NCBI RefSeq assembly: GCF_000423345.1
Contig: NZ_AUHU01000006.1
Location: 186,001-250,000, forward strand
Direction of reading: 5' to 3'
DNA from: Marinimicrobium agarilyticum DSM 16975
Lineage (GTDB): Bacteria; Pseudomonadota; Gammaproteobacteria; Pseudomonadales; Cellvibrionaceae
Length of the DNA stretch: 64,000 bases
Of the stretch, positions 25,837 to 57,015 are shown one piece after another; positions within the stretch are counted from its first letter, which is position 1, and each line of letters starts with the position of its first letter. The position numbers and the translations under genes are program-made. The notes under the pieces are model-generated. The model saw nothing but the letters and a program-made list of their open reading frames with translations, was not told the DNA's origin and did not search any database.

Positions 25837-25859
25837 TAGATGTATTTTTAATACACCTT
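25837..25859. promoter_or_regulatory. NsrR-like box upstream of the SQR-like gene
   Basis: The 23-bp site matches 20 of 23 positions of the NsrR consensus AAGATG-YATTTNAAATR-CATCTT (I count N as a match). The inner part TGTATTTTTAATACA is an inverted repeat. It ends 43 bp before the start codon of the flavoprotein gene. Confidence 0.6.
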
Positions 25860-25902: not shown

Positions 25903-27132
25903 ATGACCCAACCCCGACATCACGACATTGTCATTATCGGCGGTGGCGCCGCCGGCACCAGCGTTGCCGCCTCGCTATTGCGCCAGCGTCCACAACTGGA
26001 CGTGGCGGTGATCGAACCGAGCGACACGCACTATTACCAGCCCGCCTTCACGCTGGTGGGCGGGGGCACCTATAAGCTGGAAGACACGGCCCGTCCGCAG
26101 GCCCAGACCCTGCCCGCAGGCGCCACCTGGATTCGCCAGGCGGTCAGTGCCCTGCACCCGGAGCAGCGGCGGGTCCGCCTGGACGATGGCGTTGACGTGC
26201 ACTATCAGACGCTGGTGGTCGCAGCGGGTATCGAGCTGAATTGGGCGGCTATTGAGGGGCTCCCAGAAGCACTCGGACACGGCGGTGTCTGCAGCAATTA
26301 CGCCCCCTCCCTCGCCCGTTACACCTGGCAGTGCATCGATACGCTCAAAGCAGGACGCGCCCTGTTCACGCAGCCGGCCACGCCGATCAAATGCGCCGGG
26401 GCACCGCAGAAAATTGCCTACCTGGCGGCGCATCAGTGGCAGAAACGTCAGCAGAGCCACCACATACTGGCCGAGTTCTACAGCGGCATGGGCGCGCTAT
26501 TCAGCGTACCGGACTTTGTTCCACATCTGCAGAATGTAGCCATTGACTACGGCATTGGTGTGAACCTAAAACACGACCTGATTCGGGTGGACGGCGAGCG
26601 ACATCTTGCGACCTTCAAGGTCACCGATCAGGACGATCAGTCCCATGAAATCGAAGTGCCCTACGACCTGTTGCACGTCACCCCGCCGCAGCGGGCGCCC
26701 CGGTTTGTGCGCGAAAGCGCACTGGCCAATGAGGGCGGCTGGCTGAGGGTGGACGCCCACACACTCCAGAACCCCGATTACCCGGAAGTGTTCTCTCTGG
26801 GCGATGCCAGCTCCCTGCCGACGTCGAAAACCGCCGCCGCGGTTCGCAAGCAGGCCCCGGTGCTGGTCGAAAATCTGCTGGCGCATCTGGACCACCAGCC
26901 TCGGAGCGCACACTATGACGGTTACACCTCCTGCCCGCTCGTGACCGGCTATGGCGAGGTGATGCTCGCCGAATTTACCTACGGCGGCACCGTTACCCCA
27001 ACGCTGCCACTGAATCCGTTCAAGCGCTCGCGCTTCTATTGGGTGGTAAAAAAGCACCTCCTACCGCCCTTCTACTGGGGTTATATGCTCAAGGGCAAAG
27101 AAGGCGACATTGCCCACAAAGTGCGGGCTTGA
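25903..27132 (+). CDS. SQR-like FAD-dependent oxidoreductase
   Basis: This 409-residue protein belongs to the sulfide:quinone oxidoreductase-like flavoproteins, which oxidise sulfide (or related sulfur compounds) and reduce quinone at the membrane. It has the FAD-binding DIVIIGGGAAGTSVAASL at the N-terminus, EPSDTHYYQPAFTLVGGG, a redox-type Cys in PIKCAGAPQK, and the second FAD motif VFSLGDASSLPTSKTAAAV. The C-terminal half ends in a hydrophobic/aromatic segment (FYWVVKKHLLPPFYWG) that could associate with the membrane. AGGAGG precedes the ATG. The NsrR-like box upstream suggests induction by NO. The sulfur reductase genes cysJI follow. Confidence 0.82.
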   Translation: MTQPRHHDIVIIGGGAAGTSVAASLLRQRPQLDVAVIEPSDTHYYQPAFTLVGGGTYKLEDTARPQAQTLPAGATWIRQAVSALHPEQRRVRLDDGVDVHYQTLVVAAGIELNWAAIEGLPEALGHGGVCSNYAPSLARYTWQCIDTLKAGRALFTQPATPIKCAGAPQKIAYLAAHQWQKRQQSHHILAEFYSGMGALFSVPDFVPHLQNVAIDYGIGVNLKHDLIRVDGERHLATFKVTDQDDQSHEIEVPYDLLHVTPPQRAPRFVRESALANEGGWLRVDAHTLQNPDYPEVFSLGDASSLPTSKTAAAVRKQAPVLVENLLAHLDHQPRSAHYDGYTSCPLVTGYGEVMLAEFTYGGTVTPTLPLNPFKRSRFYWVVKKHLLPPFYWGYMLKGKEGDIAHKVRA

Positions 27133-33510: not shown

Positions 33511-35145
33511 TCAACGCTCTTTGGTGGAGAGCTGCTCAAACCAGAACAATCTCGAATGCGCCTCATCACCAAGCGACTGGGGTGCCGGATTGGCGGTCTC
33601 TCCGGTCATCAGCTCTCGTAGCAGGTCCATACGAAACGCGCCGGACAATACATCCATCCGGCCATTCCCGTCGAGATCGGCCACCACCATGGGAACCATA
33701 CCACGGTGATTGCCGGCAAGGGTCCGCGGCCGGAAATTCTGCTTGCCATCATTCTCGTACCAGATCATGGATTGGCGCTCGGGATCGTCCCAGTGATTAA
33801 CCCAACTGCTGGCGATGACATCTTGATAACCATCACCATTGATGTCGGCCACCGTCGCCTTGGCGGCACCGTAATAGCGTCCAATGTCGTGATAATCAAA
33901 CTTCAGGTTACCCCGATTGCGCAGCCACTGTACCCCATGATAAGGCTTGGGGTCGTTTTGTGTATCGAAAGCATCACCGTTGGTCATTATCAGGTCCGGC
34001 CGGCCATCCTGGTCCAGGTCCGCCGCCTGCAGTTGGGTAAAACCGTACATGGGGTGGGGCGCCCGGGCAATTTCCAAGGGGCGGTACTGGCCCTCCCCCG
34101 CGTTGATAAAGGCCATCACCACTTCGTGCTCCTGGGCGATAAGAGTGACCAGGTCCTGTCGGCCATTGCCATTGAGGTCCACGGGGACCACATTCAGAGC
34201 GCCACTCAAGCTTATCAAATCGTGCCGCTCAAACCGCCCGTCACCTCGATTTTCGAGCCACAGCACACCCCCCAGGTTATCCCCCCCAAACACCGCCACA
34301 GCCAGATCCAACCGTCCGTCATCATTCATATCCAGCACCTGCACATCGGCGATTCGACCAAGGCCTTCGTAGAGTAGCTGTTTGTCCAGATTCCCCGCCT
34401 CATCCTGCGCCAGTAGATACAGTTTGCCCTTCAGGCGGCCGCTCGGGGGCAACTCCCCGAGGTCTGCCACCACGATATCCATCCGGCCATTGCCCGTGTA
34501 ATCCAGCACCCGCGTTTGAATCGGCAGCGTAAAAGTGGCCAGAGGCGTTTCCCGCCAACGTATCCGATCATTGCCCTCAGCCTCCAGCAAGGTCAGTTGC
34601 TTTCGCTCGCCATCACACACCAGAAAAGCGTGCGCTGAGCGGCGACCAAAATCCTTCGGTGCCACCGGCTGAATATTGAGTATTTGGGGTACGGCGGAAC
34701 GCCCGCCAATACGCTGAACAGTCCACTGGCGTTCGTCTTCGGAGCGCGTAAGGGTAGGAAGCACGGGTAGCGCTTCGGGGCTTGAGCCGTAGTAAAGCGC
34801 TTTGATATGAGGGACGGCCTCGGAGGGAATCGCCTCCCCGCCAATACGCTTCTGCGCCAAGTCCACCATAGTATCGATAACGCCCGGCCAGCTGCGCTTG
34901 GGCAACAAGGAGGGGGAAGGTAGAGCGTGACAACCACCACAGAAACGCTCGGCCAGCTGGACAACGTCTTCCGCGGACTTGGGCTCTGACGGGGCGGCCG
35001 CATCCGACGCCTGGGCGGGTGAACCCAATGCATCCAGAAGTACCGCGCCCGACAGTAGCACAACGGCAAGAGTGTGGCGCCAGCGGACCGAAAAGACACA
35101 GGTCAATCGGCTTAAAAAAACTGAATTTCGATTCGATACGTTCAT
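33511..35145 (-). CDS. c-type cytochrome with FG-GAP/VCBS repeats (paralogue 1, nirK operon)
   Basis: This secreted protein of 544 residues has an N-terminal signal segment ending near SPAQA, a single c-heme motif CGGCH (about residue 69) in a short cytochrome-like domain, and then repeated FG-GAP/VCBS blades with acidic calcium-loop sequences such as DLNGNGRQD, DLDQDGRPD and DINGDGYQD. The repeats should form a beta-propeller. It shares long near-identical stretches with the protein at 39945 (HIKALYYGSSPEALP; GDAFDTQNDPKPYHGVQWL). AAGGAG precedes the ATG. It follows sco, nirV and nirK on the same strand, so a periplasmic part in nitrite respiration is inferred. No function is known to me for this architecture. 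Confidence 0.8.
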   Translation of the reverse strand: MNVSNRNSVFLSRLTCVFSVRWRHTLAVVLLSGAVLLDALGSPAQASDAAAPSEPKSAEDVVQLAERFCGGCHALPSPSLLPKRSWPGVIDTMVDLAQKRIGGEAIPSEAVPHIKALYYGSSPEALPVLPTLTRSEDERQWTVQRIGGRSAVPQILNIQPVAPKDFGRRSAHAFLVCDGERKQLTLLEAEGNDRIRWRETPLATFTLPIQTRVLDYTGNGRMDIVVADLGELPPSGRLKGKLYLLAQDEAGNLDKQLLYEGLGRIADVQVLDMNDDGRLDLAVAVFGGDNLGGVLWLENRGDGRFERHDLISLSGALNVVPVDLNGNGRQDLVTLIAQEHEVVMAFINAGEGQYRPLEIARAPHPMYGFTQLQAADLDQDGRPDLIMTNGDAFDTQNDPKPYHGVQWLRNRGNLKFDYHDIGRYYGAAKATVADINGDGYQDVIASSWVNHWDDPERQSMIWYENDGKQNFRPRTLAGNHRGMVPMVVADLDGNGRMDVLSGAFRMDLLRELMTGETANPAPQSLGDEAHSRLFWFEQLSTKER

Positions 35146-35218
35146 GCTCACTCCTTGAGCGCAGCTAACCATAATACGCCCGGGCAAGCACTACCCCAAA
35201 CAGAGTAACGGAGTAAGG

Positions 35219-35866
35219 TCAGGCCCCACCGTCGAGGCTCACAGCCTTCACAGCGCCAGTCACCGGCTGATTCAGCCCCTCCTGTCGGTGAACCACCTCA
35301 CCCTTGGCATTGAGCACAGCAATCACATTGCTGTGGTCGTAGCCGCCACTGGGGTTCTTGCGGTAGCGAACGCCCAGCAAAGCCGCCAGCGTGCGCACAT
35401 CCGCCGCCGAGCCTGTCGCGAAATGCCAAGCCTCGCCATCGGCGCGCACACTCTGAGCGTACTGGTTCAACGCCTCGGGAGTGTCGCCTTCGGTGTCAAA
35501 ACTCACCAGCAACAACGCCGCTTGCGAACGCCGCGCTTCGGGCAACGCTTGATAGATACGCTTCACATCCTGCACGAGCACCGGGCAAGCGGTCGTGCAA
35601 CTGGCGTATAACATCGTGATAATGACGGGCCGCCCCGCCAAATCTGCCAGCGTCAAAGCGTCACCACGATGGGTCTGCCATACGGCATCCAATTGGTGAA
35701 GCGATCCCTCCGGGACCCGGGAGGTCATGGGCAGCGGCGTGTGCGGCATGCCACTGTGCTGGTCGTGACCGTGATGTTCGCGCCCGGTCTGATCAAACCC
35801 CAAGGCACTCATGCCAGTGAGACCCAAGAGTGCAAAAAGCAGCCCCTTCAACATCGACGATTTCAT
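35219..35866 (-). CDS. SCO1/SenC-family copper chaperone
   Basis: This 215-residue exported thioredoxin-fold protein belongs to the SCO family, which delivers copper to cytochrome oxidases and other copper enzymes. It has an N-terminal hydrophobic signal, a His-rich stretch (REHHGHDQHSG), the metal-binding Cys pair in YASCTTACPVLV and a conserved His in GYDHSNVIAV. The ATG at 35866 has GGAG at good distance; an ATG at 35878 overlapping the nirV stop is also possible. In this operon its likely client is the copper enzyme NirK. Confidence 0.88.
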   Translation of the reverse strand: MKSSMLKGLLFALLGLTGMSALGFDQTGREHHGHDQHSGMPHTPLPMTSRVPEGSLHQLDAVWQTHRGDALTLADLAGRPVIITMLYASCTTACPVLVQDVKRIYQALPEARRSQAALLLVSFDTEGDTPEALNQYAQSVRADGEAWHFATGSAADVRTLAALLGVRYRKNPSGGYDHSNVIAVLNAKGEVVHRQEGLNQPVTGAVKAVSLDGGA

Positions 35867-35877
35867 AATAATCTCCA

Positions 35878-36618
35878 TCAAGGGTAGACGCAGCGGAAAC
35901 CCTGGTTGCTTGCGGTGGTCTCCGGGGAAAGATTGCTGCGCATCTGGTAGCGCAAAAGTGTGGCGTAATGGGCACTGTCGTAGCGGACAATCAAACGGCC
36001 GGTATCCCCGCAAGAGCCGCCACCGAAGTCGACTTGATCTCCATTGCCCAATAACAGCTGATAGTCCTCCAGCCATTCATTGACCGGTCCGATAAACCCG
36101 CTGAGACCGAGAGCCTTGTCCTCCAGGGTCGCTACCCGTTGCTCGCCGTACCAGGCAAAGACTGCATTGGCGTAATCCTGATCGCTGTGGCCGTTTAACC
36201 GCCGGCGCAAGTTCACAAGATATTCCCACTGCGCCAACGTCGGTAAGGCACCGCCTCGGGCTTCGCAGTAGGCCCGGGCGGCGTACCAGGAGACGTGTAC
36301 CACCGGCTCGCCCGGTTCACCATCAGGCTCCAGATCCGAGTGCCAGTGCTTGAGATACCCACCATCCTGAAACAACCCGGTTAGCGCCGAGCGTCGCCAA
36401 CCCGGGTGGGCCTGAACAAAGCCCGCATAGTCGGCTCGGGAGACCGGGTGCGGATCTACCCGAAAAGACTTTATCCATTCGGTCTGGACATCCCGGTCCA
36501 GCAGCACCGCGTGCTCAAACGTACCCTCTGGCACGGTCACCGGTGGCTCGGCCGCGTGGGCGCCCATCGCCCACGCCAACCCCACGATTCCGAGAAACTG
36601 AACGGCTTTCAGACCCAT
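35878..36618 (-). CDS. nirV: NirV-like protein (formylglycine-generating-enzyme fold)
   Basis: This 246-residue exported protein has a signal peptide ending near GAHAAEP and an FGE-sulfatase-type domain (PVSRADYAGFVQAHPGW, PVVHVSWYAARAYCEARGG, LPTLAQWEY and the C-terminal NQGFRCVYP). nirV genes next to copper nitrite reductase genes are known from several denitrifiers; their biochemical role is not settled. The stop overlaps the upstream start choice of sco. It sits 15 nt after nirK. Confidence 0.88.
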   Translation of the reverse strand: MGLKAVQFLGIVGLAWAMGAHAAEPPVTVPEGTFEHAVLLDRDVQTEWIKSFRVDPHPVSRADYAGFVQAHPGWRRSALTGLFQDGGYLKHWHSDLEPDGEPGEPVVHVSWYAARAYCEARGGALPTLAQWEYLVNLRRRLNGHSDQDYANAVFAWYGEQRVATLEDKALGLSGFIGPVNEWLEDYQLLLGNGDQVDFGGGSCGDTGRLIVRYDSAHYATLLRYQMRSNLSPETTASNQGFRCVYP

Positions 36619-36633
36619 GATGTTTACGCCCTA

Positions 36634-37770
36634 TTATTGAGCCGGTGCGGCAATCAAGGCGCCAGCCGCGCCGCGCTCGGCGTCGTGGAACTCGTGATCC
36701 ACCAGCTTGTACAGGCCGTCTTCTGGCACGATAAACTCCACCACAGCGCCATTACTGGCCCCAAGCAACACGGTCTGCATGCCCCGCCACTCGTTTTCCA
36801 GGTTGCCCTCATACCACACCCGATCGAAGATCGCTCCGATCACATGGAAACTGGAAGTGCCATTGGGGCCAGCGTTCAACACGTAGAGGCGCACACGATC
36901 ACCCTTGCTGGCTTTCAGTGGTTGGTCCATCAGTGCGGAAACGTGACCATTGAAAGTGACGTGGCTCGGGTTGTTTGCCATGGCGGCCTGGTGATCGTAG
37001 ATGTAGGAGTCACCCATTTTCTGGAGGTAAAACTCCGACTGAGTGATCACATATTCGTGGTCGGCCTCAGTGGGATAACCCTCTTTGGGCGACACCACGA
37101 CCGCGCCGTATTGGCCCATAGCGGTATGCATCAGCACACTGGAAGTGCCGCAGTGGTACATGTACACGCCCGGGTAGTTGGCGACCCATTCGAACTGGAT
37201 GGTTTCCCCGGGGGAGATGCTGCGCCATTTATCATCCGCGGCCACGGTTCCGCTGTGGAAGTCCATGGAGTGTGGCATGGGGGAAATGGCCGAGACGGGC
37301 TTCTGATAGGGGTTGTCGGCTAACTGACGGTAAAACGGAGCCGCATCTTTCGCAGGGCTGGTGACCACGACAGGCTCATCCGAGCGGTTCTTCATAGTAA
37401 AGATCACCCGGTCCCCCTCGCGTACATGCAGCACCGGACCCGGTACACTGCCACCGAAGGTCCAGGCGTTATAACTCACCCCCGGCGCCACTTCCACTTT
37501 CTGAGACAGAGTGTCCAGGCGCACATGGTGGGTTTTATTGCCTTTGTAATCGAGCTTCGCCAGGTGTGGGGAAGCGGTCATATATTCCCCGACCACGGCA
37601 TCACCCAGATAGTCTTCCCGATACACTTTGGCGTCGGGCATACCGTAGACTCGACCGTCCACGACAAACTCCTCCGCCGAAGAGACCGACGCAGTTTGGG
37701 AACAACCGGCCAACCACAAGGCCGACGCCACGCCTACTCCGACCGCTACTGATTTCATGACTGCTTTCAT
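36634..37770 (-). CDS. nirK: Copper-containing nitrite reductase NirK
   Basis: NirK reduces nitrite to nitric oxide in the periplasm. The 378-residue protein has a lipobox LAGC (20-23), so it is probably membrane anchored. Two cupredoxin domains follow. Type-2 copper ligands His172, His206 and His359 and the catalytic Asp170 and His309 are in place by motif (PHSMDFH, YHC, SSFHVIG, KLVDH). Type-1 ligands His167, Cys207 and His215 are present with the 8-residue Cys-His spacing of AniA-type enzymes. The residue five after His215, normally the axial Met, is Gln220; Met218 is near. About 30 residues (about 137-165) look inserted before PHSMDFH. It is downstream of a cytochrome c gene. Confidence 0.92.
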   Translation of the reverse strand: MKAVMKSVAVGVGVASALWLAGCSQTASVSSAEEFVVDGRVYGMPDAKVYREDYLGDAVVGEYMTASPHLAKLDYKGNKTHHVRLDTLSQKVEVAPGVSYNAWTFGGSVPGPVLHVREGDRVIFTMKNRSDEPVVVTSPAKDAAPFYRQLADNPYQKPVSAISPMPHSMDFHSGTVAADDKWRSISPGETIQFEWVANYPGVYMYHCGTSSVLMHTAMGQYGAVVVSPKEGYPTEADHEYVITQSEFYLQKMGDSYIYDHQAAMANNPSHVTFNGHVSALMDQPLKASKGDRVRLYVLNAGPNGTSSFHVIGAIFDRVWYEGNLENEWRGMQTVLLGASNGAVVEFIVPEDGLYKLVDHEFHDAERGAAGALIAAPAQ

Positions 37771-37811
37771 CGCTTTACTCTCTTTCTCTGAGGACCAAAA
37801 ATTTCAACGAA

Positions 37812-38204
37812 CTACCGCAACGCCTGAACAGACGCCTCGGAGATTTCACCGCCACTGCTGTTCAATTCCGAAAGGATATAAGCCACCAGATCCACCACTT
37901 TCTGGTTGTCGATATGACCCATGGGGGGCATGGCGCCGTTGTAATGGTTACCGTTCACCTCCAGGGGTCCGGATACGCCTTTAATAATGACCTTGGCGAG
38001 GTAGTCAGGGTTGCCGGCAATATTGGGGTTGTCGGCCAGCGGGGGGAAGGCCCCCTGTATTCCTGCGCCTTCAGCCTGATGGCAGGCCTGACAATTCTGC
38101 TGGTATACCGCTTTTCCGTTGGCGGGATCGGCGGCCCAAGCGTTGCCTGCCAGCGCCAACACCGCGCCGATGCCGAGTAAACATGACCTAATACACTGAG
38201 TCAT
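37812..38204 (-). CDS. Small c-type cytochrome upstream of nirK
   Basis: This 130-residue periplasmic class I cytochrome c has a signal peptide ending near GNAWAA and a heme motif CQACH with a distal Met in MPPMGH. The ATG at 38204 follows AGAGG; a longer frame to 38414 runs through a terminator and is not a gene start. It is 41 nt upstream of nirK and probably passes electrons to it, beside the azurin encoded at 49142. Confidence 0.9.
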   Translation of the reverse strand: MTQCIRSCLLGIGAVLALAGNAWAADPANGKAVYQQNCQACHQAEGAGIQGAFPPLADNPNIAGNPDYLAKVIIKGVSGPLEVNGNHYNGAMPPMGHIDNQKVVDLVAYILSELNSSGGEISEASVQALR

Positions 38205-38282
38205 AAGACACCTCTTTCTGCGATAAGAAGAAGGACAACGTGAGGCGCGGATAAGCCATGACTCCACCGCTTCCGACCGAAC

Positions 38283-38318
38283 AAAAAAAGGCCCGAAGAT
38301 GAAACCATCTTCGAGCCT
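38283..38318 (-). terminator. Intrinsic terminator in the leader of the nirK operon
   Basis: On the minus strand a 13-bp stem (38289-38301 with 38306-38318, one G-U pair) with a four-base loop is followed by seven T residues (38283-38289). It lies 79 bp before the cytochrome start codon, and no protein gene on this strand lies upstream of it within the 470 bp before the P450 gene. It must end either a small RNA or a leader transcript of the nirK operon. Confidence 0.8.
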
Positions 38319-38790
38319 GTTCAATGGAGATCTGGCATCGGCGTGAATAACAGCACTACTCCATGGTTTACCATGGGGATAGGCATACTCTCTGGCACAA
38401 TTGTTCATTCGCATCTCAGTCTGTTACGGGGAGGTCCAAAGCTGTTACGATCTCACCCACAACTCGATATAAACAGAAATTATTGCGCCGGAGTATTCCT
38501 CCGAATAGCTACCTCCCATGAATACCTCAACTACCTACTTTTAGACGCTAGAAAAAAGGTCGAAAGACCACTACTCAACAAGGAGTAGCCGGGAAGATCT
38601 TTGGCGGTAGCCCCGTGGAAACGTTTATGCCCGGCGCTGTACCATGAACTCCGGGAACCGTTACCGATTTAGCCCTTCCTGCTAAAGCCGTAAAACCACG
38701 AGCACACAATAACAACGTCACCGCCTCGCCTTGTGCTCTCCCTCACGGAGGGGTGCCGGCGCGCGCGCACGTTGTTCCGGGAGATCAGCA
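38319..38790. promoter_or_regulatory. Divergent nirK-operon/P450 control region
   Basis: This stretch has no convincing protein gene. It holds a NarL-type pair at 38572-38587, a small hairpin GGTC-GAAA-GACC (38558-38569), an inverted repeat CCATGG-TTTA-CCATGG (38361-38376), a TTTAGC/GCTAAA hairpin near 38677-38695, and arms AACAACGT (38711-38718) and ACGTTGTT (38769-38776) just before the P450 ribosome-binding site. No FNR box is seen. Confidence 0.5.
38572..38587. promoter_or_regulatory. NarL-type 7-2-7 site between nirK operon and P450
   Basis: TACTCAA (6 of 7) and AGGAGTA (7 of 7) with a 2-bp spacer match 13 of 14 NarL consensus positions. The site could serve either direction. Confidence 0.55.
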
Positions 38791-39948
38791 ATGACCGATG
38801 TGAAAAAAGAATACGACTGGGACCCCAGATCCGAGGAGGTTCTGCATCACCCTCTCGCCGCGTTCGATCAAATGCGAACCGAATGTCCGGTCGCCCATAG
38901 CGAGTATATGGGTTGGTCGGTGTTCCGGCACAAGGATGTACTCAGAGTGGTTGAGGATCATGAGACCTTCAGCAACCAGGTTTCCCAGCACCGGTCAGTG
39001 CCAAACGGGCTGGACAAGCCCGAGCATACTCCTTACAGAGCACTGATCGAGCCTTACTTTTCACAGGCGCGCATGGCGGGCTTCGAACCATTGTGCCGCG
39101 AGCTATCGGAAAATCTGATTCGTACCGTGCTCGGGCGGCAAGCCGTCGACATTATCCCGGAACTGGCCGAGAACTTTGCCCTGGAGATTCAGTGTGCCTT
39201 TCTTGGATGGCCCAACCATTTGCAAGAACCGCTTCGGCAGTGGGCTCATGAAAATCAGGAAGCCACACTTGCCGGTAACCGCGAGGCCATGAACGAGATT
39301 GCCCAGCGCTTCAGCCGCTATATTCACGACCTGCTGGAAAGCCGCCGCGAGCAGGGCGAATGGGCACCGGACGACGTGACCACGGAAATAATGAACAGCC
39401 GCATCAACGGTAACCCGATTTCTGAGAACGATATTGTCAGCATTCTCAGAAACTGGACCGTGGGGGAAATCGGCACTATCGCTGCGTCAATCGGACTGCT
39501 ATTGCAATACCTGTCGGAGCATTTGGATTTGCAGGATACCCTTCGTCGGGAGCCGGAACGAATTCCCGAAGCGGTGGAGGAGATTTTGCGTATTCACGGC
39601 CCGCTGGTTACCAACCGCCGCCGAACCACCCGGCCGGTCACCCTGGGGAGTCGTTCTGTCGGCTCCGACGAGCGCGTCACCGTCAACTGGGTATCGGCCA
39701 ACCGGGATGAGAGGGTATTCCCTGAGCCCGATCGTTTTCGCTGGGGGCGGGATCAGAGCCAGAACCTGCTGTATGGCGCTGGCCTGCATGTATGCCCTGG
39801 GGCGCCCCTGGCACGCCTGGAGCTTCGAGTGTTTCTTGAGGAGCTTCTTGCCGCCACCAATCGGGTCACGCCGAGTATCGGTAAAACACCGGTCAATGCC
39901 CACTATCCAGCCAGTGGCTACCAGCATTTGTGGCTGGACTTTTCTTAG
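38791..39948 (+). CDS. Cytochrome P450 with atypical I-helix
   Basis: This 385-residue soluble heme protein is a bacterial cytochrome P450: K-helix ExxR in EEILRIHG, and heme-ligand loop YGAGLHVCPGAPLARLE with the Cys thiolate. In the I-helix the usual (A/G)GxD/ET oxygen-activation motif reads GEIGT, so the acidic partner of the Thr is missing. The ATG at 38791 follows GGGAG. No ferredoxin or reductase gene is adjacent. The gene diverges from the nirK operon and its 3' end overlaps that of the NsrR-linked FG-GAP cytochrome by 4 nt. A role in NO chemistry is a guess from context. Confidence 0.88.
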   Translation: MTDVKKEYDWDPRSEEVLHHPLAAFDQMRTECPVAHSEYMGWSVFRHKDVLRVVEDHETFSNQVSQHRSVPNGLDKPEHTPYRALIEPYFSQARMAGFEPLCRELSENLIRTVLGRQAVDIIPELAENFALEIQCAFLGWPNHLQEPLRQWAHENQEATLAGNREAMNEIAQRFSRYIHDLLESRREQGEWAPDDVTTEIMNSRINGNPISENDIVSILRNWTVGEIGTIAASIGLLLQYLSEHLDLQDTLRREPERIPEAVEEILRIHGPLVTNRRRTTRPVTLGSRSVGSDERVTVNWVSANRDERVFPEPDRFRWGRDQSQNLLYGAGLHVCPGAPLARLELRVFLEELLAATNRVTPSIGKTPVNAHYPASGYQHLWLDFS

Positions 39949-41495
39949 GGAGTCGTCGCCTCATTCTTGAACAACAGCAGGCGAGCGGAGGGCTCGCGCT
40001 TGTCTTCTCGCATTGCCTCTGTGTCGAGGGCGATCCGATTATCCTCTCGCGAGAAGAACTCGGTAAGAATATCCATGCGAAAGGCGCCGGTCACAATATC
40101 CAGGCGGCCGTTGCCCGTGATATCCACCAGCTCCAGAGACACCAGACCGCGATGCTTACCGCTGACCGGCCGAGGCTGAAATTGCTGTCGGCCATTGTTC
40201 TCAAACCAGATGAGTGACTGACGTTTCGGGTCTTCCCAGTAGTTGGCCCAACTACTGGCCACCACATCCAGGTCCCCATCGCCGTCCATATCGCCAGCGG
40301 TGGCGTTGGCCGCGCCATAAAACCGGCCAATGTCGTGAACGGCGAACTTCAGATCGCCTTTGTTCTCCAGCCACTGGACGCCGTGATAGGGCTTGGGCTC
40401 GGTCTGGGTGTCAAAGGCATCGCCGTTGGTAAACAGAACGTCCGGGTCGCCGTCCCGGTCAAAATCGACGACTTCCATTCTGGTAGAGCCAAACAATGGA
40501 TGCCCGGCACTGACAAGATCCTTTCGCTCGAAACGGCCTTTGCCCTGGTTGATAAAGGCGACCAGCGTTTCATGCTCTTGGGCCACAAGGGTGAGGAGAT
40601 CGATTTTCCCGTCGCTGTTCAAATCGGCGGGCGTAATGTTCAGCGCGCCGCTCAACCCCAGCAGGTCGTGTTTTTTGTGGGAGCCGTCGGCCTCGCGTTC
40701 CAGCCAGAAGACCTCTCCCACATCGCCACCGCCGAAGACCGCCACGGCCAGGTCCAGATCGCCGTCCTGATCCAGGTCCAACGCCTGCACGTCGCTGACT
40801 CGCCCAAGCTGGTGCATCAGCCGTCGCTTTTCAAAGTCGCCGTTTTCATGCTGCTCCAGCAGGAACAGCTTCCCGGCGAGCATGCCGTTGGGCGGGAACT
40901 CTCCCAGATCCGCCACCAGGATGTCCTCGCGCCCGTCCCCGGTGTAGTCCAGTACCCGGGCGGTAATGGGAATATCGATCTCGGCCAGCACGGTTTCCCG
41001 CCACTCGGGGGCCTTTCCGCCCTCGGTTTCGAGCAGGAGCAGCTGATGCCCCTCGCCGTCACTCACCAGGAAGCTGTGGCGGGCCTCTCCCAGCGAGGTT
41101 GACTGAATGTTGAGTATCTGGGGAATGCGGGAAGGGGCACCGATCCCGCCCGGTGAGAAATGCACCGTCGGATGGGATTGATCAATGTAGGGCAGTTTGG
41201 GGAGGGCCTCGGGGCTGCTGCCAAAATACAGTGCCTTGATGTGCTTGACGGCCTCCGCCGGAATGAAGTCCTGCCCGGTACGGTTTTTGGCCAGTGTCAC
41301 CATGGAGTCGATCACGTAGGGCCAGCTGTTTTTCGGCAACAAGGCCGGCGACGGCACGGCGTGGCAGGACCCACAGTACTGCTGAACCAGGGGGAGAATG
41401 TCCTCGACGGTCTTGGGCTCGGCTGCTTGGACAACGGTTACCGCGCCGCACAACAAAGCCACGACTATCGCTTTTATTCCGGCTTGCACTTGCAT
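39945..41495 (-). CDS. c-type cytochrome with FG-GAP/VCBS repeats (paralogue 2, NsrR-linked)
   Basis: This exported protein of 516 residues is a paralogue of the product at 33511. It has a signal peptide (ending near VVQAAEP), one c-heme motif CGSCH (about residue 41) in YCGSCHAVPSPALLPKNSW, and FG-GAP repeats with loops such as DLDQDGDLD, DLNSDGKID, DFDRDGDPD and DMDGDGDLD. It lies 73 nt downstream of a small membrane-protein gene that has a near-consensus NsrR box, so the two are probably co-transcribed and NO-induced. The ATG at 41495 has GGAG very close; a GTG two codons later would have better spacing. Function unknown. Confidence 0.8.
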   Translation of the reverse strand: MQVQAGIKAIVVALLCGAVTVVQAAEPKTVEDILPLVQQYCGSCHAVPSPALLPKNSWPYVIDSMVTLAKNRTGQDFIPAEAVKHIKALYFGSSPEALPKLPYIDQSHPTVHFSPGGIGAPSRIPQILNIQSTSLGEARHSFLVSDGEGHQLLLLETEGGKAPEWRETVLAEIDIPITARVLDYTGDGREDILVADLGEFPPNGMLAGKLFLLEQHENGDFEKRRLMHQLGRVSDVQALDLDQDGDLDLAVAVFGGGDVGEVFWLEREADGSHKKHDLLGLSGALNITPADLNSDGKIDLLTLVAQEHETLVAFINQGKGRFERKDLVSAGHPLFGSTRMEVVDFDRDGDPDVLFTNGDAFDTQTEPKPYHGVQWLENKGDLKFAVHDIGRFYGAANATAGDMDGDGDLDVVASSWANYWEDPKRQSLIWFENNGRQQFQPRPVSGKHRGLVSLELVDITGNGRLDIVTGAFRMDILTEFFSREDNRIALDTEAMREDKREPSARLLLFKNEATTP

Positions 41496-41568
41496 CTCCG
41501 CTCGGGGAATGAACGCCGATTATAGAGTGGAATGACGCCGGATAAAACGCCAGGCTTTCCCGGCCCGC

Positions 41569-41790
41569 TCAGTCGACCGCACGCCCCAACTGCTTGAGGG
41601 CGGTCAAACGCAGCACATAACCCAGCTTGAAGAAGGCTGGAAAGACTATCAGCGCAATATGGGACGCCACTTGAGTGGCCAACCCGAGCGAGTGCGAAAA
41701 CATATACGCCAGTGAAAGCGCGCCGAGTGATAACACCAAACTCAGAAGCATGCCAGCGTGGGCGACGTGGAGCAGTTTGAGCGGGTTCAT
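41569..41790 (-). CDS. Small two-helix membrane protein behind an NsrR box
   Basis: This 73-residue protein has two hydrophobic segments (about 10-32 and 38-60) joined by a short turn, with His residues near both (LLHVAHAGM, SHSLGL, SHIALIVF). I do not recognise the family with certainty. A good ribosome-binding site (GGGGAGGG) precedes the ATG. It has a 21-of-23 NsrR site 30-52 bp upstream and is followed by the FG-GAP cytochrome, so a part in NO handling is inferred. Confidence 0.7.
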   Translation of the reverse strand: MNPLKLLHVAHAGMLLSLVLSLGALSLAYMFSHSLGLATQVASHIALIVFPAFFKLGYVLRLTALKQLGRAVD

Positions 41791-41819
41791 GGTGGCCCTC
41801 CCCGGATCTCGTTTGCCAT

Positions 41820-41842
41820 AAGATGTAATTTATATACATCTT
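41820..41842. promoter_or_regulatory. NsrR box upstream of the small membrane protein gene
   Basis: AAGATGTA and TACATCTT arms flank an AT-rich centre; 21 of 23 consensus positions match (N counted). It is the best NsrR-like site in the window. Confidence 0.75.
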
Positions 41843-51636: not shown

Positions 51637-54003
51637 TTACTTGTTGCCGCCGCAGTGACCGCAGCAGACGCTGTCACCCTGATGGGCTTCGGCCATGGCG
51701 GCGTCGGACTCAGCATAGGCGGGGGGCCAGGCTTTTTCCAGGCGCCCCGCCGCCGGCTTGCCCGATGCGTCGGGAAAGAGTACGCCCTTAACCACCTGCC
51801 AGCTCACTGCCAGAGCACCGACAATGAAAATCACATCACCAATAGTACGTATCCAGCGCAGGGTTTCCAGCAGCGGTTGCTGCAAAAAGGCTTCACTGCG
51901 AGCGTACCACAGCCCCTCGGAAGCGCTTGCCACGAACTGGATGATGCCCACCGGCAACAGGCTGGTAAACAGCATCAACACCAGTCCGCCGTTCATCCAC
52001 CAGAAGGCGGTTTTCATGAGTCGCTCGCTAAACACCATGTTGGGGCGAATGTAACGCAGGATCAACAGACCAAACCCCAGCGCCAGGAAGCCATAAACGC
52101 CGAACAACGCCGCATGAGCATGGGTGGGCGTGGTATTCAGCCCCTGTACGTAGTACAGCGAGATGGGAGGGTTGATCATAAAGCCCAGCACGCCCGCTCC
52201 CAGCATGTTCCAGAAGGCAACGGCTACGAAGAACAGCAGTGGCCACTTGATGTTCTGCATCCAGGGCGCACGGAACTTCAACCGCCAGTTCTCCCAGGCC
52301 TCATAGCCCAGAACCACCAGAGGGACCACCTCCAGCGCGCTGAAGGAAGCGCCCACCGCCATCACCGGTGTGGTGGTGCCGGAAAAGTACAGGTGGTGGA
52401 AGGTACCGGGCACGCCCCCGAGCATAAACAGTGAGGCCGAGGCCAGCGACGCGGCGGTGGCCATGGGCCGGGACACCAGCCCCATGCTGCAGAAAATGAA
52501 GGCCAGGGCGGCAGTGGCGAACACTTCGAAGAAGCCTTCTACCCACAGGTGCACCACCCACCAACGCCAGTATTCCATGATGGAAATGTGTGTGCGTTCT
52601 CCATAGGCCAGACCCGCGCCGTAGAACAGGCCAATGGCCACCACCGAAGCCGTTAACAGTACCAGCAGGTTCTTATCCCCACCCTGCTTGAGGGCCGGCA
52701 CGATGCCGCGCATCATCAGGAACAGCCAGAAAGCAATGCCGGCGACTTTCAGGATCTGCCAGAACCGGCCGAGGTCGACGTACTCATAGCCCTGATGACC
52801 CAGCCAGAAGCTCCACTCGGCAGGCATGATCTGGTTGATGGCGAAGAAGTTACCGACGAAAGACCCGACCACGACCGCAATCAATGCCCAGAACAGAATG
52901 TCCACCCCCAACTTTTGATACTTGGGATCTTTGCCGCCATTGATCACCGGCGCAAGGAACAGTCCCGCCGCCAGGAAGCCGGTAGCGATCCAGAACATGG
53001 CCGACTGAATGTGCCAGGTGCGCATCAACGAATACGGAAACCAGTCCGACGTCTGAATGCCGTAAAAACCCTGGCCTTCAATGGTGTAGTGCGCGACGAA
53101 CCCGCCCAGAAACACCTGGAAGGTAAACAGTCCCACCACGGCCAGAAGATACTTACCCAGCGCTTTTTGAGAGGGCGTAAGCGCAAAGGTGGTGATCGGG
53201 TCCTGCTTGGGTGCCTCGGGCTCTTCTTCGTCTTCTTTGCGCAGGAACGCCCAACCCCAGACCAGCCCGCCCACGCCGGCAATCAGCAAGACCACACTGG
53301 CGATGGACCAGACGATGTTCTCCGCCGTGGGCTTGTTGCCGATCAAGGGCTCATGGGGCCAGTTGTTGGTGTAGGTCGCCTCACCGGGATAGCGCTCGGT
53401 GGCGGCCGCCCAGGCCGTCCAGAAGAAAAAGTCGGTCAACTGTTCGCGCCGCTCCGCGCTGGGCATCGTGACTTCTTTCATGGCATAACTTTCGCGGGTC
53501 GGCTGAAGCGCAGGATCGCCTCCAAACAGGCGGTTGTAGTAATCCGCCGTCTGCGCCATGGCCTGAACGCGCCGCTCGGAAACGACCAGCGTATCGGTCT
53601 CGGCATTCCAGGTATTGGTGCGATAGGCCTGCTTCAATTCATATTGGAGCGCATTCTGCTCACTCCCAGTCAGTTCTTCATAACCGGCGCCGTAGGTGTC
53701 CTTTGCGGCCAGCTCCAGCCAGGCAAGCAATTCCCGGTGCAACCAGTCCGCTGTCCAGTCCGGGGCCTGGTAGGCACCGTGCCCCCAAATGGAACCCAGT
53801 TGCATACCGCCCACGGATTGCCAGGCCGTCTGACCGTCCAGAATGCTGGTCTCGGTCATGATTGTCTGGCCAGAGGCCGTTACCACCTGATCGGGGATCG
53901 GTGGCGCCTTGCGATACACCTCCATCCCGAAATACCCCAACAAGCCAAAGGTCACAGCCAGTGTGCCAATCAGCGTCCACCACAGTTTCTTGTACTTACC
54001 CAT
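51637..54003 (-). CDS. norZ: Quinol-dependent nitric oxide reductase (qNOR)
   Basis: This 788-residue inner-membrane enzyme reduces two NO to nitrous oxide with electrons from quinol. The N-terminal part (about 1-230) is the NorC-like domain without heme c that marks the quinol type; the C-terminal part is the heme-copper-oxidase-like NorB domain, with histidine-bearing segments such as WRWWVVHLWVEGFFEVFA and THAHAALFGVYGF. The C-terminus ends in an unusual cysteine cluster, VCCGHCGGNK. The ATG at 54003 overlaps the ytfE stop by 8 nt, so both are made from one NsrR-controlled mRNA. Confidence 0.94.
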   Translation of the reverse strand: MGKYKKLWWTLIGTLAVTFGLLGYFGMEVYRKAPPIPDQVVTASGQTIMTETSILDGQTAWQSVGGMQLGSIWGHGAYQAPDWTADWLHRELLAWLELAAKDTYGAGYEELTGSEQNALQYELKQAYRTNTWNAETDTLVVSERRVQAMAQTADYYNRLFGGDPALQPTRESYAMKEVTMPSAERREQLTDFFFWTAWAAATERYPGEATYTNNWPHEPLIGNKPTAENIVWSIASVVLLIAGVGGLVWGWAFLRKEDEEEPEAPKQDPITTFALTPSQKALGKYLLAVVGLFTFQVFLGGFVAHYTIEGQGFYGIQTSDWFPYSLMRTWHIQSAMFWIATGFLAAGLFLAPVINGGKDPKYQKLGVDILFWALIAVVVGSFVGNFFAINQIMPAEWSFWLGHQGYEYVDLGRFWQILKVAGIAFWLFLMMRGIVPALKQGGDKNLLVLLTASVVAIGLFYGAGLAYGERTHISIMEYWRWWVVHLWVEGFFEVFATAALAFIFCSMGLVSRPMATAASLASASLFMLGGVPGTFHHLYFSGTTTPVMAVGASFSALEVVPLVVLGYEAWENWRLKFRAPWMQNIKWPLLFFVAVAFWNMLGAGVLGFMINPPISLYYVQGLNTTPTHAHAALFGVYGFLALGFGLLILRYIRPNMVFSERLMKTAFWWMNGGLVLMLFTSLLPVGIIQFVASASEGLWYARSEAFLQQPLLETLRWIRTIGDVIFIVGALAVSWQVVKGVLFPDASGKPAAGRLEKAWPPAYAESDAAMAEAHQGDSVCCGHCGGNK

Positions 54004-54679
54004 TTGCCGCAGCCCCCAGCCCGTCAATACGATCAAATAAAATGTTGTTTTCCAGATGGATGTGGTCCATTAAGTCGACCTCGAGCGATGCCAATCCCAC
54101 GTAAAGCGCTCGCCAGGTGTTACAGGCCCCGACGGGGAGGTTGATGCCCCGAGTCAGCTCATGGATTCGGCGCAGCCCTTGGGCGTGCTCATCGTGTTCG
54201 TGGCGCATCATGTTCACCGGCCCCGTGGCCATCCCCAGCATGCCCCGGGCAATCATGGGGAAGAGAATCTGCTCTTCTTTATCCATATGGCTCTCCAGCT
54301 CGGCAACCATCGCTTCCAGATGATTCGCCAAGCCGCTGGGGCACTCGGGGTGGCCGCCGTGAACCAGCTCAACCCGCTGACTGAGACGAATCAGTTCCGG
54401 CAGCTGTTGGCGATGCACGTCGTGATAACGAGTCAAGATATGCTCAATCAGTTCGCTATCGCCCGCCTCCGCCCAGTTGCCTCGGGCACCCTTCGCCTGG
54501 GCGTGTAAAAGGTCCAGTTCAGCAACCAGTGCGCCCGGATCCACCCCCTTGCGCTCAAGTGCATGGGAAAGCGTCTGTTTCCCCCCACAACAAAAATCCA
54601 GGCCGTAGCCATGAAATACGCCAGTGGCGCCGGGTAACTCCCGGGCAATATCACCGACCGATTGCGTCAGCCAACTCAT
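53996..54679 (-). CDS. ytfE: Iron-sulfur cluster repair di-iron protein YtfE/DnrN (RIC)
   Basis: This 227-residue cytoplasmic protein repairs Fe-S clusters damaged by NO. An N-terminal ScdA-type domain with LDFCCGGKQTLSHAL precedes the hemerythrin-like di-iron domain (about 80-220) with histidines in HILTRYHDVHRQQLP, MDKEEQILFP and RHEHDEHAQGLRRIH and HIHLENNILFD. The ATG at 54679 follows GGGGGAG. It is first in an operon with norZ and has an NsrR-like box 47-69 bp upstream. Confidence 0.94.
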   Translation of the reverse strand: MSWLTQSVGDIARELPGATGVFHGYGLDFCCGGKQTLSHALERKGVDPGALVAELDLLHAQAKGARGNWAEAGDSELIEHILTRYHDVHRQQLPELIRLSQRVELVHGGHPECPSGLANHLEAMVAELESHMDKEEQILFPMIARGMLGMATGPVNMMRHEHDEHAQGLRRIHELTRGINLPVGACNTWRALYVGLASLEVDLMDHIHLENNILFDRIDGLGAAANG

Positions 54680-55386: not shown

Positions 55387-56565
55387 ATGCCCCAACGCAA
55401 CGCCCTGCTCTGCTACCCTTTTCGTCCGTTTTTTATTCTGACGGGCCTGTACGCCATAGTGGTGGTGTTGGCCTGGGTCGGGTTTCTGTTTGGCGGCTGG
55501 CCTCTGCCGCTGGGCTGGTCACCCCTGCAATGGCACAGCCATGAAATGATCTACGGCTTCGTTACGGCCGCCACCGCCGGGTTTCTACTCACGGCCATGT
55601 GCAATTGGACGGGCGCTCCCCCACTTCAAGGTAAAGGCCTGTTAGCACTGGTAATGCTCTGGCTGGCCGGGCGCCTTGTCTTCTGGTTCGCCGGTTGGCT
55701 GCCCGGTTGGCTGGTGGCCGCGGTGGATCTGGCTTTTCTACCGGTGGTTGCAATCTATGCCGCTCGTGTGTTGTTACGCTACGGCAACAAGCGCAACCTG
55801 ATTTTAGTGGCGGTGCTAGCCGCGCTGACCGTCGGCAACCTGCTCATGCACCTGGGGTTTTCCGGCGGCAGCATGCATTGGTTAAAGCTCGGGCAGGGCC
55901 TGGGACTCGATATCATAACGTTAATGATTGTGGTCATTGCCGGGCGCATTACGCCGGCGTTCACGGCCAACTGGTTAAGAGGCCAGGGGGAACCGGCTGA
56001 ACGGGTTGTTAAATCCACAACCGTCACTGGCCTGGCAATGGCCAGCGTGGCCTTACTGGCCGTATTGGCGTTGTTGCCACTACCCGCTTGGTGCGAAGCG
56101 CTGGCTGCTCTGTTTGCGGGGGGAGTGAACGCTCTGAGACTATACCAGTGGCGGGGGTGGCTGGCGTGGCGTGAGCCACTGCTGTGGATCCTGCACTTGG
56201 CCTACGGATGGGTGGTCCTCGCGCTGCTGCTGCGCGGGGTCAGCGGTTTTTATCCGGCCATACCCGACACGCTGTGGCAGCACTCGCTGGCCTTGGGGGG
56301 CATTGGAACACTGATCCTCGGGGTGATGAGCCGGGTCGCCGTCGGCCATACAGGGCGACCCATGAAGTTGCCGCCTTATGGCCGTTTGATGATTTGGGCC
56401 ATTATTGCCGCCACCGTTTTGCGTCTGTTGGCAGCCAACCAGTGGATTGATTACCGCATTGGGGTAACCTTGTCCGCGCTGAGCTGGATTTTGGCCTTCA
56501 GCTTGTTTGTCGTGCTTTACGCACCCATGTTAACTCAACCCCGGGCCGACAACCGCCCAGGCTAA
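55387..56565 (+). CDS. nnrS: NnrS family heme-copper membrane protein
   Basis: NnrS is an inner-membrane protein linked to tolerance of NO and nitrosative stress and found in many NsrR regulons. The 392-residue chain has about 12 membrane segments, the start CYPFRPFFILTGLYA and the motifs WHSHEMIYGFVTAATAGFLL and GVMSRVAVGHTGRP. GAGGAG precedes the ATG. It is 30 nt after ybaN and 12 nt before nsrR. Confidence 0.93.
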   Translation: MPQRNALLCYPFRPFFILTGLYAIVVVLAWVGFLFGGWPLPLGWSPLQWHSHEMIYGFVTAATAGFLLTAMCNWTGAPPLQGKGLLALVMLWLAGRLVFWFAGWLPGWLVAAVDLAFLPVVAIYAARVLLRYGNKRNLILVAVLAALTVGNLLMHLGFSGGSMHWLKLGQGLGLDIITLMIVVIAGRITPAFTANWLRGQGEPAERVVKSTTVTGLAMASVALLAVLALLPLPAWCEALAALFAGGVNALRLYQWRGWLAWREPLLWILHLAYGWVVLALLLRGVSGFYPAIPDTLWQHSLALGGIGTLILGVMSRVAVGHTGRPMKLPPYGRLMIWAIIAATVLRLLAANQWIDYRIGVTLSALSWILAFSLFVVLYAPMLTQPRADNRPG

Positions 56566-56577
56566 CCGAGGTCATTC

Positions 56578-57015
56578 ATGCACATTACCCGTTACACCGA
56601 CTACTCTTTACGGGTGCTGATGTACGTGGCCCTGAAGGGCGAGGCGCTATCCACTATTCGCGAAATCGCCGAGAGCTACGATATTTCCAAAAACCATTTG
56701 ATGAAAGTGGTGCAGGAGTTGAACAGTAAGGGCTACCTGCACGCCATTCGGGGCAAAAACGGGGGGCTGCGCTTACGTGGCACGCCAGAGGAAATTAACC
56801 TCGGTGAGCTCATTCGAAGCACCGAACAGGATCTCACCCTGGTGGAGTGCTTTGGCAGTGGAAGCCAGTGCGCCCTGACACCGGCCTGCCGGCTCAAAGG
56901 GGTCTTGGCCGAGTCGCTGGAGGCGTTTTTCCGAGTACTGGACAGCTACACCCTGGCAGACCTGGTTTACCCCGAAAACGCTCGGGAAATGAAACAGTTA
57001 CTGCGTATGCCCTGA
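56578..57015 (+). CDS. nsrR: NO-responsive Rrf2-family repressor NsrR
   Basis: NsrR is an Fe-S-cluster repressor that loses DNA binding on reaction with NO. The 145-residue protein starts MHITRYTDYSLRVLMYVAL, has the winged helix (ISKNHLMKVVQELNSKGYL, IRGKNGGLRL) and three cluster cysteines in ECFGSGSQCALTPACRLK with the C-x5-C-x5-C spacing of NsrR. It ends an operon with ybaN and nnrS, and NsrR-like boxes occur at several promoters in the window. Its 3' end overlaps the convergent gene at 56998 by 18 nt. Confidence 0.94.
   Translation: MHITRYTDYSLRVLMYVALKGEALSTIREIAESYDISKNHLMKVVQELNSKGYLHAIRGKNGGLRLRGTPEEINLGELIRSTEQDLTLVECFGSGSQCALTPACRLKGVLAESLEAFFRVLDSYTLADLVYPENAREMKQLLRMP

Follow-up and report, generated by a model that had tools for sequence, protein, structure and literature searches.

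Proteins that unite a c-type heme domain with a propeller are familiar from periplasmic nitrogen and redox metabolism, where they include cytochrome cd1 nitrite reductase (NirS) and the quinohemoproteins that use pyrroloquinoline quinone (PQQ); for electrons, the copper nitrite reductase NirK is usually taken to depend on no more than a cupredoxin or small cytochrome. C-heme domains fused to NirK have been discussed as electron routes to that enzyme (PMC4770552), and, in the sections of a further article considered here, CRTAC1-family FG-GAP genes adjoin hydrazine-synthase homologues, among multiheme cytochromes related to nitrogen-compound enzymes (PMC12758564). In this study, we analysed a stretch of 64,000 nucleotides (the window; contig NZ_AUHU01000006.1, positions 186,001 to 250,000) from the 4.5-Mb genome of Marinimicrobium agarilyticum DSM 16975, a member of the Cellvibrionaceae that groups with the named relatives Gilvimarinus and Marinimicrobium. 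The window encodes two proteins, A and B, that likewise pair a c-heme domain with a propeller, A within a nirK gene run. Genes of this family have been placed beside nitrate, nitrite or nitric oxide (NO) genes, or beside genes of anaerobic respiration, several separate times, which hints at a subsidiary part in such respiration, although many relatives have other neighbours. As a tentative explanation, we favour a monoheme redox partner in the periplasm that nitrate/nitrite respiration, in its nitrite branch, has recruited time and again.

A and B are paralogues (55% identity over 491 amino acids) and the only full-length family copies in the genome. Both open reading frames bear out the design that an initial annotation of this DNA had read in them, namely a signal peptide, one CxxCH heme motif and FG-GAP repeats. 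The repeats match the Pfam families FG-GAP_3 and FG-GAP (PF13517/PF01839; E ~1e-35) over six stretches in both proteins, at 122 bits against a cut-off of 26.9, while the signal peptides, and with them export, were judged by eye. In the numbering of B, residues C41, C44, H45 and M65 are invariant in 28 of 28 aligned gammaproteobacterial homologues, and the CxxCH lies in a putatively exported domain of three helices (residues 30-93), as in class I-like monoheme c-type cytochromes. The conserved methionine is probably the axial heme ligand, which would give His/Met ligation; it stands only 20 residues past the heme histidine, and a planctomycete homologue is without it. Neither protein matched a curated cytochrome c profile of Pfam (DHC 14.6-20.1 bits, below its cut-off of 22.2; Cytochrome_CBB3 far below cut-off), and no NCBIfam model matched A or B. 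Three known groups were rejected on their domains: UnbV_ASPIC (PF07593), expected of CRTAC1/ASPIC-UnbV proteins, was not among the Pfam matches of A and B, nor was Cytochrom_D1 (PF02239) of NirS, which also had no match in genome G000, nor any PQQ family. Judged from their sequences, A and B would be related periplasmic proteins in which a small c-type cytochrome is fused to a seven-bladed propeller.

The AlphaFold model (confidence values in Table 1) places the three N-terminal helices before an all-beta propeller with strands throughout residues 111-513. We read seven blades from the arrangement of its strands and from the fold matches, the top Foldseek matches in the PDB being CRTAC1 (9etn), aldos-2-ulose dehydratase and integrin alpha heads. 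The propeller is best conserved in loops that all sit at one and the same end of the inner strands, with a mean entropy of 0.93 bits compared with 1.75 in the rest of the propeller and 1.05 in the calcium loops. This face carries the invariant residues R232, Q306, E309, D359, D362, K368-H371, N418, W420 and R425, and the conserved loop stretch includes TNGDAxDxQxxPKPYHGVQWLEN. The face residues are largely kept in heme-less relatives from Acidobacteria, Planctomycetota and Opitutales, which were retrieved via two peptide patterns lying inside the conserved stretch itself. Since the face is highly conserved in these relatives also, the propeller probably has a role in binding or catalysis that is independent of the heme.

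The gene order claimed in the initial annotation, in which A ends a run of cytochrome c, nirK, nirV (FGE-like) and sco, was confirmed. Its NirK falls below the cut-off of TIGR02376 (154 bits on the genome and 196 on the protein, against 296.3), yet is most like Geobacillus NirK (3wkq), with which its HxxDxH, HC...H....M and catalytic histidine regions align, so that the copper-ligand and active-site motifs are present. Relatives of A and B were recovered by an alignment-based scan of genome contigs, a single-protein scan having recovered none, and the family proved rare: it occurs in 1 of 369 genomes in a class sample (the genome studied here), 3 of 295 in an order sample and 21 of 144 in the host family. 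In two congeners, G001 and G002, a B-type gene ends the cytochrome c-nirK-nirV-sco run, and the A-type gene of G001 sits one transporter gene away. The family tree splits A-type proteins, among which A of the window is sister to the A-type protein of G001 (100/100 support), from the B-type. With A ending the run in the window, B-type genes ending it in the congeners and the two lineages separate on the tree, a single operon slot has been filled by either lineage. Elsewhere, a family gene closes a moa operon within a NarX/NarL/NarK/ubiUV island (G709 and G721), lies between nnrS/ric and nrdD/ubiTUV with narJI, named by sequence, further upstream (G720), or has a MerR gene and ubiUVT behind it in the metagenome-assembled genome KatS3mg121, which carries nirS.

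When the nirK run, the moa/Nar island, the nar/ric/nnrS region and the ubiUVT neighbour were scored as nitrogen-oxide contexts, the tree needed five changes, of which well-supported branches force at least four, a change being a gain or a loss. NirK, NirS or quinol NO reductase (qNor) is present in 11 of 18 carrier genomes, so homologues are not found mostly in genomes without denitrification genes; NirK or qNor is present in 10 of 52 non-carrier relatives. Counted by genome among relatives, NirK occurs in 4/6 carriers versus 5/52 non-carriers (Fisher p 0.004) and qNor in 4/6 versus 8/52 (Fisher p 0.014). A rough estimate, made with a gene list chosen after seeing the data, puts the chance that a 65-kb island in a genome of 4.5 Mb would contain four of ~20 neighbourhoods at ~2e-4. 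These results bear on the explanation that A and B are general periplasmic proteins and that their nitrogen-oxide neighbourhood reflects locus mixing in these genomes, with no function behind it. The rarity of the family, the wide scatter of its neighbours and the carriers that have none of NirK, NirS and qNor fit such mixing, whereas the placements on well-supported branches, the two paralogous lineages in one operon slot and the chance estimate make it unlikely in our view.

Taken together, the c-heme, the conserved binding face and the repeated recruitment to anaerobic nitrogen-oxide loci point to a periplasmic redox partner as the most likely role. A and B would be exported monoheme c-type cytochromes, with the CxxCH and the conserved methionine in the N-terminal heme domain and the calcium-loop FG-GAP propeller as a docking or ligand-binding platform. 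In this genus they would most likely assist the periplasmic branch that reduces nitrite, as accessory redox partners: the heme would swap electrons with the c-cytochrome/azurin pool and with NirK, and the conserved face would hold a partner or a small ligand. Both the A-type and the B-type lineage would have been drawn into this region, where one is under the nirK promoter and the second may be reached by read-through from an NsrR-controlled gene. A rare heme-propeller family that joined nirK, moa/nar and ubiquinone-UVT loci separately would indicate an unrecognised accessory step of nitrate/nitrite respiration.

Several points weigh against this role. A separate cytochrome c and an azurin are already present as donors, and an electron carrier alone would need no such face as the propeller keeps even in heme-less relatives. 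Seven of the 18 carriers are without NirK, NirS and qNor, and by genus the co-occurrence is weak for NirK (2/4 versus 5/49, p 0.08) as well as for qNor (2/4 versus 8/49, p 0.16). In other genera the cytochrome c-nirK-nirV-sco run also occurs with no family gene at its end (G026, G021), and one carrier, a Pseudoxanthomonas, keeps its nirK, nirV and sco at another place in the genome. Family genes neighbour TonB-receptor and tryptophan-halogenase genes in G024, G319, G712, G721 (copy 1), G797 (copy 2) and Gilvimarinus gilvus, stand beside cydAB in several Gilvimarinus, and have mixed surroundings in the remaining homologues. The family is therefore not exclusive to denitrification. Of the proposal in the initial annotation, a propeller cytochrome for nitrite or NO metabolism, the link to nitrate, nitrite and NO is stronger than that annotation could tell, through the B-type genes of the congener nirK runs and the repeated placements, and a dedicated denitrification protein is not supported.

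A close rival, possible although somewhat unlikely, is a cytochrome-linked enzyme whose face oxidises or otherwise converts an organic ligand (a sugar derivative, say) and whose heme feeds the periplasmic c-cytochrome pool, anaerobic-respiration loci having recruited it for that purpose. It would accommodate the low entropy and invariant residues of a face that mostly persists without the heme, the first places of CRTAC1 and aldos-2-ulose dehydratase in the fold search, and the TonB receptors and tryptophan halogenases of other genera. The nirK and moa contexts, however, contain no substrate-metabolism genes, the match to aldos-2-ulose dehydratase has only 14% identity, and no cofactor site was identified. 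We consider it distinctly unlikely that the family represents a novel kind of redox enzyme, at work in the periplasm during nitrate/nitrite respiration, with a new active site on the propeller face, a heme coupled to NirK, and paralogues that split nitrite supply and NO stress between them. The position of A after sco and nirV, and of the family gene at the close of the molybdenum-cofactor operon in G709 and G721, would also suit a factor that assembles or repairs metalloenzymes of the periplasm, for instance NirK, working alongside NirV and Sco. This we regard as improbable, given the runs that do without a family gene, the lack of a chaperone domain in A and B, and contexts that share no metalloenzyme.

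Regulation links B to NO less directly. The 21-of-23 NsrR site that the initial annotation had seen ahead of a small membrane protein gene is upheld: the operator in Table 1 lies ~30 nt ahead of a 73-amino-acid gene and is one of two sites with at most three mismatches in the window, where 0.01 would be expected, and a backward-read control pattern gave zero sites in six whole genomes. Genome-wide, the NsrR pattern yields few sites (none in G002), and in relatives several of them precede nnrS/nsrR or ric/qNor genes; these few sites, their fitting contexts and the clean control make the operator credible. Among 58 relatives, 12 have homologues of the 73-amino-acid gene (loci L061-L072), most of them with no A/B homologue present, and these homologues adjoin NsrR-like sites, nnrS, ric, nsrR/qNor, azurin, or flavohaemoglobin (Hmp)-like or NorR-like genes, these neighbours being named by sequence reading. 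Such neighbourhoods mark it as an NO-regulon gene independently of B, and it looks like a second uncharacterised NO-response gene. The NsrR site serves this gene directly and the link of B to NsrR is indirect, so that the earlier claim of two independent ties to nitrite or NO within one genome is not supported. B begins 73 nt behind the gene and is possibly read from its promoter by read-through. Its position there, and the Ric and NsrR-like genes nearby, would fit an NO- or nitrite-binding heme protein for scavenging or sensing, which we hold to be a poor candidate: the invariant methionine argues for a six-coordinate heme, a poor NO binder, A and B have no signalling domain, and the read-through is only putative, with a weak hairpin in between.

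Table 1. Coordinates of the features discussed, in positions of the window
Feature	Position	Strand	Remarks
Protein A: N-terminal c-heme domain and FG-GAP propeller	33511..35145	-	last gene of nirK run; 76-nt gap to sco
SCO1/SenC-type copper chaperone (sco)	35222..35884	-	Pfam PF02630, E 4e-19
NirV-like FGE-sulfatase domain protein	35878..36618	-	Pfam PF03781, E 3.6e-21
NirK-like copper nitrite reductase; nearest solved relative Geobacillus NirK (3wkq)	36634..37770	-	phmmer E 5.7e-65
Small c-type cytochrome, head of nirK run	37812..38204	-	Pfam PF00034, E 2.7e-14
Protein B: N-terminal c-heme domain and FG-GAP propeller	39945..41495	-	AlphaFold mean predicted local distance difference test (pLDDT) 84.5, predicted template modelling score (pTM) 0.83
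Weak terminator-like hairpin between 73-amino-acid gene and B	41549..41564	-	whole gap folds no better than shuffles
73-amino-acid small membrane protein; NO-regulon gene in relatives	41569..41790	-	
NsrR-like operator (palindrome), 2 mismatches of 23	41820..41842	+	
Rrf2-family regulator, best NCBIfam match NsrR; adjoins NnrS	56578..57015	+	132 bits, below 182 cut-off

Besides the nirK run, the window holds azurin, the iron-sulfur repair protein Ric, an NsrR-like Rrf2 gene, a quinol NO reductase-like gene (51637-54036) and an NnrS-like gene (55387-56565), the last two named from sequence and homologues, and further left ubiUVT, moa and nar-type genes, named by sequence similarity and order. 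Together these mark the region as a nitrate/nitrite/NO island. The quinol NO reductase-like and NnrS-like products had no NCBIfam match at 1e-5, and automatic annotation may overlook both. The window shows some excess of FNR/DNR-type sites (TTGATnnnnATCAA; 31 versus 16.6 expected), with none in the nirK promoter; no NsrR-like site with up to six mismatches lies ahead of the nirK run, and an Rfam scan of positions 30000-58000 found no RNA at gathering level. A second NsrR-like site (25837-25859, three mismatches) precedes a sulfide:quinone reductase-like gene at 25903, and site and gene are conserved in G001.

Around the nirK run, a direct repeat, CTGTTAC-N-CTGTTACGAT, at 38420-38465 lies between the run and a divergent cytochrome P450 gene (38800-39948), is kept in G001 and G002, and may be a regulator site. 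The long leader upstream of the cytochrome c gene contains a strong terminator-like hairpin (38289-38318, minus strand) that is missing at that place in both congeners. The P450 gene adjoins the nirK run in all three congeners, and another P450 is found near a family gene in Marinimicrobium clean655; an identity as P450nor was rejected for the window's gene, which resembles ordinary bacterial hydroxylases and has no PDB or NCBIfam match indicating P450nor. In the wider family, several Cellvibrionaceae share a recurrent cluster in which a family gene goes with a TonB receptor and a tryptophan halogenase (L013, L019, L110, L112, L121, L125). G001 and Paraglaciecola encode small cytochromes with a C-terminal CxxCH close to the family gene (L010:5402-5938 and L023:11657-12109); by eye they resemble c'-type four-helix cytochromes, and they have no Pfam match.

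In comparison with described systems, A and B share FG-GAP repeats and calcium loops with the seven-bladed FG-GAP/VCBS propellers of the integrin alpha head and CRTAC1, but add an N-terminal c-heme domain, are without the ASPIC/UnbV domain found in a CRTAC1-like neighbour, and reach at most 17% identity. Aldos-2-ulose dehydratase (4a7k) has the same propeller fold (E 1.8e-11) and a weak sequence match over 41 residues, but it is a larger enzyme (about 880-900 residues) with no heme domain and 14% identity to the family protein. The alpha subunit of hydrazine synthase, as presented in the sections considered of PMC12758564, also combines c-heme and propeller; compared with it, NirS and the PQQ enzymes, A and B have FG-GAP blades, one heme and no Cytochrom_D1 or PQQ match. 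For the FG-GAP protein of that article, those sections describe no c-heme, and it belongs to a different operon and different phyla. Where NirK has a fused cytochrome c domain, the extra c-heme is a possible electron route (PMC4770552); here the heme is carried by a separate propeller protein. In the literature covered, which leaves subscription journals aside, we found no account that ties c-heme FG-GAP proteins to nitrite metabolism, and for FG-GAP/VCBS together with nirK, nitrite reductase or denitrification it gave PMC12758564 alone, which in the sections considered describes something else. Each part of A and B is known; new to us are the union of these parts in one protein and the recurrent placement of its genes.

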